NCBI GenBank assembly: GCA_944366945.1
Contig: CALVWJ010000015.1
Location: 1 to 64,000 of the forward strand
Direction of reading: 5' to 3'
Source: an uncultured Clostridia bacterium
Lineage (GTDB): Bacteria > Bacillota > Clostridia > Christensenellales > CAG-138
DNA length: 64,000 nucleotides
The position numbers and the translations under genes were made by a program. Position 1 is the first letter of the stretch. Each line of letters opens with the position of its first letter. The notes beneath the pieces are model-generated. The model did no database searches. It saw only the letters and a list, made by a program, of their open reading frames with translations, and had not been told where the DNA came from. Below, one piece after another: positions 12,207 to 15,881 of the stretch.

Positions 12207-12884
12207 ATGGAACAAAAACAACGCATCAATATCGCCATTGATGGACCTGCAGGTGCGGGAAAAAGCACGCTTGCAAAGCTGATTGCGGAGCGATTGAACA
12301 TTCTGCATCTGGATACGGGAGCAATGTATCGGGCAATGGCGCTTAAAGCTTTGCGCAGCGGGATTGAACCTGGGGATGCATCGCGCGTGCTTCCGCTGCT
12401 TCCGAAAACGGAAATCACCGTAAAAAACATCGGTGGTATTCAGCATACTTATTTGGATGGAGAGGATGTTTCCAACTTAATTCGAACACCGGAGGCATCC
12501 AAAGGTGCATCCGATATTGGCGTTATCCCAGAGGTGCGTATGAAGCTCGCGGAAAGCCAACGGAAGTTTGCCGAGGAATATGATGTAATCATGGATGGAA
12601 GGGAGATTGGATCCTTTGTATTGCCGGATGCGCCTTATAAATTTTATGTTACAGCATCTGCAGATGAGCGTGCGCGCCGGCGCTTATTAGAGCTTCAACA
12701 AAAAGGCATTGGGTTAGATAAAACATTGGAATCCATGCGGGAAGAAATCCTTGCACGCGATCACACGGATAGCACGCGCGCGTTTGCTCCGCTTGTGCAA
12801 GTGCAAGATGCAATTCTAATTGATACCACGGAATTGAGCGTTGAAGAGGCGGTGGAAGCAGTCCTTCGGCATATAAAAAGATAG
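12207..12884 (+). CDS. cmk: Cytidylate kinase
   Basis: The 225-residue enzyme carries the P-loop GPAGAGKST (residues 13-21), the LDTGAMYRA substrate motif near residue 35 and the DGREIGSFVLPDA segment near residue 130. It has the extended NMP-binding insert of bacterial CMP kinases. It phosphorylates CMP and dCMP with ATP. The cmk-plsC-ispH-rpsA order seen here is a well-known clostridial arrangement. Spacing to plsC is 19 bases. Confidence 0.97.
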   Translation: MEQKQRINIAIDGPAGAGKSTLAKLIAERLNILHLDTGAMYRAMALKALRSGIEPGDASRVLPLLPKTEITVKNIGGIQHTYLDGEDVSNLIRTPEASKGASDIGVIPEVRMKLAESQRKFAEEYDVIMDGREIGSFVLPDAPYKFYVTASADERARRRLLELQQKGIGLDKTLESMREEILARDHTDSTRAFAPLVQVQDAILIDTTELSVEEAVEAVLRHIKR

Positions 12885-12903: not shown

Positions 12904-13506
12904 ATGTTATATCTGCTGATAAAATGGACGATTGGACAGCTGATCCTGCTCGTAACGCGGCCAATTGTATATGGCCGGCAAAACCTACGCGTGAAAGGAA
13001 AAGCTATTTTCATCGCGAATCACCGCTCCATGTGGGATCCGCTGATTCTTGCGTTAATCTCTCCACGCAACATTCATTTTATGGCTAAGAAGGAGCTGTT
13101 TGAAAGCAAGCTTGGGAACCTTTTTTTTCGCTCGCTCTATGCGTTCCCCGTGAATCGCCATAATGTGGATTTGACGTCTTTGAAAAATGCGCTCAAGGTG
13201 TTAGAACAAGGCGAGGTGTTCGGCATTTTCCCGGAAGGGAAGCGCGCAGTTACGGATTCTCTCGATGAATTTGAAAAAGGGGCCGCATTTTTGGCAATCC
13301 GCTCCGGAGCCCCGGTCATTCCTATTTATATACATCCAGATACGTCACGCCAGATTCGGCCTGTTATGCTTGTTGGAAAGCCCATTGACGTGAGCGCGAT
13401 CGTAGCTTCTGCAAACAAATCCTCGCTGATTGAAGTGGTGACGGATGAACTTGCGGATTCTATCAATGCATTGCAGGCGGAATTGGAGGAACTTTATTGC
13501 GGATAA
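12904..13506 (+). CDS. plsC: 1-acyl-sn-glycerol-3-phosphate acyltransferase (PlsC)
   Basis: A 200-residue membrane-associated acyltransferase with the catalytic NHRSMWDP (HX4D) motif near residue 40 and the FPEGKR motif near residue 110, plus a hydrophobic N-terminus (about residues 1-20). It makes phosphatidic acid from lysophosphatidic acid. Its last 10 bases overlap the TTG start of the ispH-rpsA gene. Confidence 0.93.
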   Translation: MLYLLIKWTIGQLILLVTRPIVYGRQNLRVKGKAIFIANHRSMWDPLILALISPRNIHFMAKKELFESKLGNLFFRSLYAFPVNRHNVDLTSLKNALKVLEQGEVFGIFPEGKRAVTDSLDEFEKGAAFLAIRSGAPVIPIYIHPDTSRQIRPVMLVGKPIDVSAIVASANKSSLIEVVTDELADSINALQAELEELYCG

Positions 13507-15812
13507 TCGTTGCAAAGCATATTGGGTTTTGCTTTGGTGTGCGCCGGGCAATTGAAATTGCAGAGCATGCTGCTGCAAAGTATGGCAAAATCTACTCCTA
13601 TGGAGCACTGATTCACAATGCGCAAGCTGTTGCGCGCCTTGCAGAAAGAGGAGTTATCACTGCGGCCACGCTTGCGAAAATTCCGCATGGGTGCCATGTT
13701 GTGATTCGGTCGCACGGCGTTCCACCAGAGGTATATGATGAATGCGCGCAGCAAAGGCTTGCGGTCATCGATGCAACATGCCCGTTCGTGCAGCGCATCC
13801 ATCAGATTGCTCTCGAAGAAAGTCGCTTAGGACGCCGCATCATGATCGTTGGAGATCCAGCACATCCAGAGTGCATTGGGATCAATGGATGCTGTGGGGG
13901 GAATGCATGGTTTGTACGCGAAATAGCGGATGTAACTGCGCTTGAAAAGGAAACTGCAGTTTCCTTGATTGCGCAGACAACGGCCTCTGTTGCCTTATTT
14001 GAGGCAGCTGAGCAGGCAGCGCGCACCTATTATTCAGATCTTCATATTTTTCGCACCCTTTGTAGCACAACGCAGGCACGGCAAAAAGAAGCTGAATGGA
14101 TGGGGCAAAATTGCACGCAAATGGTTGTGATTGGGGATGAGAATAGCTCCAATACACAAAAATTGCTTTCCGTTTGCAAAAAATATTGTAAACATGTACA
14201 ATCAGTAGCAAAACATAGCGAACTTTCACTTGAAAAAATCCATGCGGATGATATAATAGGTATTGTTTCAGGCGCTTCTGCGCCGGATTGGATAATTAGG
14301 GAGGTTATAACAAGGATGAGCGAACTGGATAAGACGATGGCTGAAAATCCCGTAGAAAACAGTGAGGTAAAAACGGAAGCAACAGCTACCGTCGAAGAAC
14401 CCGCCACGGCGGCCCCCACTGTGGAGACTGCTGCGGAGACTACAACCGAACAAAACGGGAGCACGGATTCTAACTTCGCAGAAGCATTCGAAAAGACTCT
14501 TGTTCGAATTAGAAATGGCCAGATTCTGACGGGATCTGTTGTACAGATCGTTGATGGCGAAGTGTGCGTAAACATCGGTTACAAGTCGGATGGGTTCATT
14601 CCTCGCAGCGAGTTTTCTTCCGATGCTGATGTTAATCCAGCAGACGTAGTAAATGTAGGCGACCAGATTGAGGTCGAAGTTCTCAAGGTGAATGACGGCG
14701 AAGGCAATGTGCTGCTTTCCAGGAAAAACGTTGAGAGCAAGAAAATGTGGGACAACCTTGTGCAGGATGAAAATATCCAGGACAAGGTGTTTGAAGGCGT
14801 TGGCAAGGAAGTTGTTAAGGGCGGCTTGATTGCAACAATTGATGGCGTTCGCGCGTTTATTCCAGCTTCCCAGCTTTCCACGAAGTATATTGAAAACATT
14901 GCCGAATTCGTTGGTCAACCGCTCAAGCTTAAGGTGATTGAAGTAGACAAAGCCCGTAAGCGTATCGTTGCTTCCCACAAGGCAGTCATGCTTGCAGAAG
15001 CAGAAGAAGCGCGCAAACAAAAGTGGGCACAGCTTGAGGTCGGCGCAAAGGTTAAAGGTGTTGTGCGCAGAATTACCGATTTCGGTGCTTTTGTTGACAT
15101 CGGTGGTATTGATGGCCTTGTCCATGTTACGGATGTTGCTTGGGGTCGCGTAAAGCATCCTTCCGATGTGCTTTCCATTGGCCAGGAGATTGAAGTTCTC
15201 ATCCGTGATGTGGATGTAGAAAAGCAACGCGTTTCCCTAGGCTATAAGCAGTTGCAGCCAAAGCCGTGGACCATGGCGGATAAGAAATATCCGGTCGGCT
15301 CAATCGTGGAAGGCAAGGTTGTGCGTATCGTTCCGTTTGGCGCGTTTGTTGCACTTGAGCCCACGATCGATGGCCTCATCCATATTTCTCAAGTTGGCGT
15401 GAAACGCATTGCAAAGGTTGAGGATGAAATTAACGTTGGCGATATCGTACGCTGCAAAGTGCTGGATGTAAATCCGGAAGCAAAACGCATCAGTTTGAGC
15501 CGGCGTGAAGTAATCCTGGAGGAGAACCCGGAGATTGCGGAAGAGCTTGCCAAGGAAAAAGCGGAACGCGAACGCATTGCGGCAGAGCGTGCGGAACAGC
15601 GTGCTGCTGCTGCAGAACAAGCGCGTCAACAGCAGCAAGCCCGTTCGGAACGCCGTGAGCGTCAAGAGCGTAGTGAGCGTCCCGATCGCGGCGAACGCCG
15701 TGAACGTCCTCGCCGTGAGGATGCAGATTATGATCTGCCGCCAGTTCAATCCGCAACCACGTCCCTCGCAGACCTGTTCGCAGGTTTTACCGCAAGTGAG
15801 GAAGAAAAGTAA
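13497..15812 (+). CDS. ispH: IspH-ribosomal protein S1 fusion
   Basis: A 771-residue fusion. Residues 1-273 are 4-hydroxy-3-methylbut-2-enyl diphosphate reductase, with the three cluster-binding cysteines in GFCFGV, ATCPFV and LCSTTQ; it makes IPP and DMAPP, the last step of the MEP pathway. An acidic linker follows, then four S1 RNA-binding repeats (about residues 335-405, 420-500, 515-590 and 600-680) and an Arg/Glu-rich tail. The start is TTG at 13497, supported by GGAGGA at 13485-13490. Such fusions are annotated in many Clostridia. An internal promoter and start near 14230-14318 may yield free S1 as well. Confidence 0.95.
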   Translation: MRIIVAKHIGFCFGVRRAIEIAEHAAAKYGKIYSYGALIHNAQAVARLAERGVITAATLAKIPHGCHVVIRSHGVPPEVYDECAQQRLAVIDATCPFVQRIHQIALEESRLGRRIMIVGDPAHPECIGINGCCGGNAWFVREIADVTALEKETAVSLIAQTTASVALFEAAEQAARTYYSDLHIFRTLCSTTQARQKEAEWMGQNCTQMVVIGDENSSNTQKLLSVCKKYCKHVQSVAKHSELSLEKIHADDIIGIVSGASAPDWIIREVITRMSELDKTMAENPVENSEVKTEATATVEEPATAAPTVETAAETTTEQNGSTDSNFAEAFEKTLVRIRNGQILTGSVVQIVDGEVCVNIGYKSDGFIPRSEFSSDADVNPADVVNVGDQIEVEVLKVNDGEGNVLLSRKNVESKKMWDNLVQDENIQDKVFEGVGKEVVKGGLIATIDGVRAFIPASQLSTKYIENIAEFVGQPLKLKVIEVDKARKRIVASHKAVMLAEAEEARKQKWAQLEVGAKVKGVVRRITDFGAFVDIGGIDGLVHVTDVAWGRVKHPSDVLSIGQEIEVLIRDVDVEKQRVSLGYKQLQPKPWTMADKKYPVGSIVEGKVVRIVPFGAFVALEPTIDGLIHISQVGVKRIAKVEDEINVGDIVRCKVLDVNPEAKRISLSRREVILEENPEIAEELAKEKAERERIAAERAEQRAAAAEQARQQQQARSERRERQERSERPDRGERRERPRREDADYDLPPVQSATTSLADLFAGFTASEEEK
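14230..14257 (+). promoter_or_regulatory. Possible internal promoter for S1
   Basis: Inside the 3' part of ispH, TTGAAA (14230-14235), a 16-base spacer and TATAAT (14252-14257) form a near-consensus promoter, with TG one base before the -10 (extended -10). A transcript would start near 14264, just before an in-frame ribosome binding site and ATG for the S1 part. Confidence 0.5.
14297..14318 (+). promoter_or_regulatory. Internal ribosome binding site and start for S1
   Basis: AGGGAGG (14298-14304) is followed 11 bases later by an in-frame ATG at 14316-14318, exactly at the junction of the IspH domain and the S1 linker (residue 274). Initiation here would give a separate S1 protein of 498 residues. 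Confidence 0.5.
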
Positions 15813-15833: not shown

Positions 15834-15865
15834 AAAACGAGGTTATCTTTGGATAACCTCGTTTT
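15834..15865. terminator. Bidirectional terminator between rpsA and the ABC exporter
   Basis: A perfect 14-bp stem (15834-15847 with 15852-15865), a 4-base loop, and A/T runs on both flanks serve the convergent genes on either side. Confidence 0.92.
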
Positions 15866-15881
15866 ACTATCTGCTGATATT

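Follow-up and report, generated by a model that had tools for sequence, protein, structure and literature searches.

The fused ispH-rpsA gene analysed here is most probably a nested two-product gene, which would give rise to both an 85-kDa IspH-S1 fusion and a free 55-kDa S1 protein (probability of roughly 0.87, judged from the sequence and its conservation). The gene lies in the window, by which we mean the whole 64,000-nucleotide stretch of DNA that was analysed, from an uncultured Clostridia bacterium. Its coding sequence contains an internal Shine-Dalgarno (SD) sequence and an in-frame ATG at the end of the IspH domain, preceded by a putative promoter. The internal translation start is phylum-wide, and the promoter is limited to one lineage of the order.

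The ispH-rpsA fusion and its neighbourhood

Features of the locus, in window coordinates:
12207..12884, + strand, cmk, (d)CMP kinase gene (TIGR00017), presumed to share an operon with ispH-rpsA
12904..13506, + strand, plsC-like acyltransferase gene, overlapping the ispH start by 10 nt
13485..13489, + strand, GGAGG upstream of the ispH TTG start, read in the sequence within the 3' end of plsC
13497..15812, + strand, fused ispH-rpsA open reading frame (ORF), 771 codons, TTG start, product of ~85 kDa
13497..14318, + strand, IspH (LytB) domain, residues 1-274; Pfam PF02401 (LYTB) spans residues 3-274
14230..14235, + strand, -35 element TTGAAA of the internal promoter, read in the sequence; its TTG is kept in relatives
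14249..14257, + strand, extended -10 element TGA-TATAAT (TG 14249-14250, TATAAT 14252-14257), separated from the -35 element by a 16-nt spacer
14262..14265, + strand, predicted transcription start at A14262 or G14265, placed from the position of the -10 element; leader of ~51-54 nt
14298..14304, + strand, internal SD AGGGAGG, core GGAGG at 14300-14304, 11 nt before the ATG
14316..14318, + strand, internal start ATG, in frame, residue 274 of the fusion
14316..15812, + strand, nested rpsA frame, 498 aa, 55.1 kDa: an acidic variable linker followed by four S1 domains

On the + strand, cmk and the plsC-like gene are followed by the 771-codon ORF. Its product matched the NCBIfam model PRK00087.1 over residues 1-693 with 724.5 bits, above the cut-off of 624, and has the domain order of that fusion: a LytB domain, whose translation contains the three cluster-cysteine motifs GFCFGV, ATCPF and LCSTT, is followed in the same frame by four S1 stretches detected with Pfam. 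Since residue 273 is Arg, trypsin would release from the fusion the peptide MSELDK, with which free S1 would also begin; removal of the Met (SELDK) or formylation would mark the free form. In the 2.4-Mb draft genome, which is 94% complete, ispH-rpsA is the single ispH and the single full rpsA locus, and at that completeness it is the sole genomic source of IspH and S1. The only other match to the fusion model is partial, covering the S1 domain alone over 85 residues.

The IspH-RPS1 fusion and its IspH activity have been published (Rao et al. 2015, PMC4746011), and there the fusion is treated as one bifunctional polypeptide, with no other rps1 gene reported. C. acetobutylicum and C. thermocellum are among the carriers (PMC4746011), and, as the initial annotation had stated, such a fusion is known in Clostridia. 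Domain order and locus are the same here as in the described IspH-RPS1 fusion (PRK00087 / NF000907). Fusobacteriota have fusions as well, with six S1 repeats. What the present analysis adds to the account in PMC4746011 is the internal start, which sequence comparison shows to be conserved at this locus. The text of PMC4746011 uses none of the terms promoter, linker, start codon and proteolysis, and in the open-access literature, supplementary tables aside, no mention of a promoter or start inside ispH-rpsA came to light.

The internal start is conserved at the domain junction

The search covered 101 relatives together with 147 class-level and 199 phylum-level genomes, and the junctions of 226 fused loci (56 from the family, 35 from the rest of the order, 105 from the class and 30 from the phylum) were compared codon by codon. 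GGAGG was found at the same two codons in 224 of these loci (56/56, 34/35, 104/105 and 30/30, respectively), where codon usage would predict about 31-52% for each of the two G-ending codons. In 225 loci an ATG occupies either the canonical codon or the one just before it, and the remaining locus has GTG. When Met is lost at its usual place, as in L105, L108, L164, L165, L203 and others, an ATG is present one codon earlier. Among named genomes, both SD and ATG were found in 77 of 78 fused loci, the carriers including Ruminococcus flavefaciens FD-1, Clostridium methylpentosum, Flavonifractor sp. An306 and Anaerosalibacter bizertensis. In the single exception (L266), further ATGs follow in frame within a few codons, the first of them behind an SD-like stretch. 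The SD-ATG spacing of 11 nt lies at the long end and counts against the internal-start explanation.

The initial annotation had reported AGGGAGG at 14298-14304 and an in-frame ATG at 14316, exactly at the end of the IspH domain, and had asked whether both are conserved beyond what the protein requires. We read both motifs at these positions, and the Pfam LYTB match ends at residue 274, the very residue encoded by the ATG. The conservation, for its part, does exceed the coding need for the SD as well as for the start, and it reaches across the phylum.

It could be argued that protein constraint (I-x-E-V-x-x-x-M) together with codon bias suffices to produce the SD and the ATG, given that Glu-Val is common in this helix in unfused IspH too. 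Yet the position before Glu is occupied by nine different amino acids (codons AGG, AAG, GAG, ATG, TTG, CTG, ACG, CAG, CGG, TGG or GGG), and its codon ends in G in 225 of 226 loci. The Glu codon itself is GAG in 225/226, compared with the 32-52% expected from GAG use elsewhere in the same genes. Moreover, the position of the start is taken by Leu or Ile and never by Met in the first unfused ispH controls of the class (n = 8), of which one has GGAGG. We therefore regard an origin of the two signals in protein constraint as almost certainly wrong.

A programmed frameshift stimulated by the SD was also considered and was rejected: the same frame stays open through the junction, and the codons separating the SD from the ATG differ among loci and share no slippery stretch.

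Unfused and out-of-frame loci

Two named genomes with unfused loci, Alkaliphilus pronyensis and Tepidibacter mesophilus, have neither the SD nor the ATG. A larger control set comprised 17 unfused ispH genes with no S1 gene detected in the fetched downstream stretch. As read by eye, GGAGG occurs in two of the 17 and is missing from the rest; both carriers (L340 and L349) are G+C-rich, and we take these two occurrences as chance. Most unfused ispH genes that do not adjoin rpsA have neither signal.

A second kind of unfused locus retains rpsA next to ispH in another frame. In family f55, the overlap of rpsA with ispH measures 16-41 nt. The same GGAGG lies 9-10 nt ahead of the rpsA ATG, and the protein has an MSE N-terminus homologous to that which the fused S1 shows from the internal Met onwards. 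In f115, this SD is followed by an other-frame codon that would start S1 as (M)SEQ, this codon being GTG in three loci. In family f107, the SD and the rpsA start are relocated about eight codons downstream, and the family includes one fused locus (L337) and two unfused ones (L338 and L339). L337 and L339 differ by a small local indel, and both keep the SD and the start MSEKDHMV. The overlapping loci thus share with the present gene an SD inside ispH and the MSE start of S1; unlike this gene, they have S1 in another frame and hence make no fusion protein. Because the start signal stays constant in f55, f115 and f107 while the fusion toggles, the internal ATG is identified as the start of rpsA. 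Likewise, since overlapping unfused loci start rpsA there, the conserved SD and start belong to rpsA itself.

These loci also bear on the idea that the conserved GGAGG marks an elongation pause at the domain boundary, aiding the folding of IspH with no initiation taking place. The position of GGAGG at the end of the IspH domain fits a pause, but pausing does not need an ATG at a fixed distance, and GGAGG is mostly absent from unfused ispH genes that do not adjoin rpsA. The out-of-frame loci use it as the ribosome binding site of rpsA, and the short mRNA expected in the promoter-bearing lineage would lack most of ispH. A pause without initiation is, in our judgement, extremely improbable.

In L048 and L066 the frame is broken between IspH and S1; these loci were examined as natural unfused forms and rejected. 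The disruption sits after the ATG, within a repetitive or N-containing linker, so we treated both as assembly faults. Locus L325 has an N gap.

Synonymous sites of the junction

For 63 promoter-bearing genes we built a codon alignment and scored 720 columns by how far codon identity exceeds what the usage of each genome would give. Synonymous conservation was strongest in eight columns, 245, 246, 251, 252, 253, 268, 269 and 276, seven of which score 1.0. Columns 245 (1.0) and 246 (0.97) correspond to the -35 element, columns 251-253 (1.0 each) to the extended -10 element and columns 268-269 to the SD; column 276 is codon 3 of the nested frame, which opens with ATG AGC GAA. Promoter, SD and start are thus, as this codon alignment indicates, held by nucleotide-level selection beyond the protein code.

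This pattern is relevant to the view that the full-length fusion is the sole functional product, with the internal promoter, SD and ATG being leftovers from before the fusion. Such a view would accord with the retention of the fused frame in nearly all loci and with the finding that the purified fusion of C. thermocellum is an active IspH (PMC4746011). However, leftovers should have undergone synonymous decay across the phylum, yet these sites show the strongest synonymous constraint in the gene, and a lost Met is restored one codon earlier. We consider this view very unlikely.

A putative internal promoter in one lineage

The initial annotation had noted TTGAAA-16-TATAAT, with TG before the -10 element, at 14230-14257, and the sequence at this place reads accordingly. 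All elements of an extended -10 SigA-type promoter are present (TTGnnn, a spacer of 16-18 nt, TGn and TATAAT), and they are conserved in relatives independently of the protein sequence. Seven promoter-like sites were detected in 4 kb; the junction site ranks first, with 11/12 matches and TGn in addition, ahead of six sites that score 9. Seven sites are about what chance would give (5.9 +/- 2.5), so the junction promoter in one genome alone proves little.

Comparison with relatives is more telling. TTGnnn-16-TGnTATAAT was found at the same place in 56/56 sampled members of the GTDB family and in 10/35 others of the order. In these promoter-bearing relatives the codon before ATA ATA varies among GAT, GGT, GCT and GTT, and the -35 codon among CTT, ATT and GTT. 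All these codons end in T although the residues they encode differ, which points to conservation of the nucleotide and not of the amino acid. The stretch between the -10 element and the next landmark is longer by one codon in ten family members, in which the promoter has shifted as one unit. The junction promoter score tops that of every other ispH stretch of the same length in all 65 scorable promoter-bearing loci, and its mean percentile against synonymous reshuffling is 0.98 in the promoter-bearing loci. Conservation of the promoter among relatives is far beyond chance. It is also beyond coding need, which the initial annotation had proposed to check, within the single lineage to which it is confined.

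Internal initiation might still be real with the promoter unused, TTGnnn-TGnTATAAT then reflecting chance and AT-rich codon use. Promoter-like sites are indeed frequent by chance, and the motif is absent from most of the phylum. Against this, 66 genomes keep the three parts at exact spacing while the residues change, and columns 245 and 251-253 stand at the top of the 720. An unused promoter therefore seems unlikely to us.

In the rest of the class and in the phylum, a shifted or different junction promoter showed no enrichment over synonymous reshuffles. TAAAAT or TATAAT occurs at the place equivalent to the -10 element in class members such as L136, L141, L153, L170, L172 and L194, sometimes with TG ahead; such -10-like sites are scattered and not enriched overall. 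Given that no promoter enrichment was seen outside the lineage, the internal SD would have to suffice in most of the phylum. In a tree built from 56 fused proteins, presence of the promoter maps as a single change (500 shuffles gave a mean of 18, none as low). The branch carrying this change is weakly supported (68/21), so that an origin of the promoter pattern by one gain or by one loss is possible.

A two-product model for ispH-rpsA

We propose the following scheme. Upstream transcripts (cmk-plsC-ispH) translated from TTG 13497 would give the 85-kDa IspH-S1 fusion; as there is no stop between ispH and S1, every ribosome starting at ispH yields the full-length fusion. Ribosomes would also initiate within the ORF, using GGAGG 14300-14304 and ATG 14316, and produce free 55-kDa S1. 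In the promoter-bearing lineage, the extended -10 SigA-type promoter at 14230-14257 would add a short S1-only mRNA with a leader of ~50 nt, raising S1 output independently of IspH. The computed masses of the two expected products are 84.9 and 55.1 kDa. The purpose of the arrangement might be to make much S1 without much IspH, so that an abundant ribosomal protein is uncoupled from a low-abundance Fe-S enzyme.

S1 is thus very probably also made as a separate protein, beside the form in which it is the tail of IspH. From the sequence we infer two proteins in the cell, with free S1 as the main ribosomal form; free S1 need not be the main product. The second expression route for S1 that the initial annotation had envisaged gains support in that the conservation of promoter, SD and ATG clearly exceeds coding need. 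By far most loci retain the fused frame, and the full-length protein therefore probably matters too. The persistence of this frame suggests either that the fusion has a use of its own or that in-frame junctions are hard to leave. As a tentative idea of rather low probability, there may be two S1 populations, free and IspH-tagged, and the tagged S1 on a minority of ribosomes may have its own function, for instance linking isoprenoid or Fe-S status to translation. This would explain why the fused frame is kept far above the neutral one-in-three.

In-frame internal starts that give two proteins are familiar in bacteria from infB (the IF2 forms), clpB and cheA. With these genes ispH-rpsA shares one ORF, two starts in the same frame and a shorter C-terminal protein. 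The forms of infB, clpB and cheA, however, are variants of one protein, whereas here the start would yield an entire second protein, a component of the ribosome, apart from the enzyme to which it is fused, and in one lineage an internal promoter is present as well. Promoters inside an upstream operon gene have been described in C. difficile for CD3045/CD3044 and coaE (PMC7438776) and in C. ljungdahlii for rnfG and hydA (PMC6203783). As in those clostridial operons, a promoter within coding sequence would raise the downstream gene alone; in contrast to them, both genes here form one continuous ORF, and promoter, ribosome binding site and start all lie inside the fused coding sequence.

S1 is one of the main proteins of translation, and most of the sampled genomes of the phylum have it annotated solely as the tail of IspH. 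Should S1 possess a conserved start of its own, the PRK00087 annotation, proteomic quantification and models of the translation apparatus would need correction, and one could no longer assume an Fe-S enzyme on every ribosomal S1. The two products would then be separately removable, making the reason for fusing IspH to S1 directly testable. The locus would also be a clear natural case of a promoter, a ribosome binding site and a start codon inside a coding sequence, kept over great evolutionary depth.

Other observations at the locus

A search of viral contigs for the ispH-rpsA junction gave no match. The ispH start codon is TTG in several relatives and ATG in others. Just 3' of rpsA, between convergent genes, lies a long palindrome, AAAACGAGGTTATC-TTTG-GATAACCTCGTTTT, at 15834-15866, which is likely a two-way terminator and was missed by a simple terminator scan. 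Six genomes of family f66 (G133, G226, G182, G204, G159 and G244) carry, in addition to the fusion, a second, free-standing S1-domain gene of ~380-420 aa, which also matches the S1 part of the fusion model. Finally, the linker that follows the internal ATG expands to long acidic or charged repeats in L055 (for example EEPVAEEVPEVVEEPVAEE), L056 and L091, the expansion in L091 amounting to ~300 aa; these long repeats indicate that the N-terminal tail of S1 evolves very fast.
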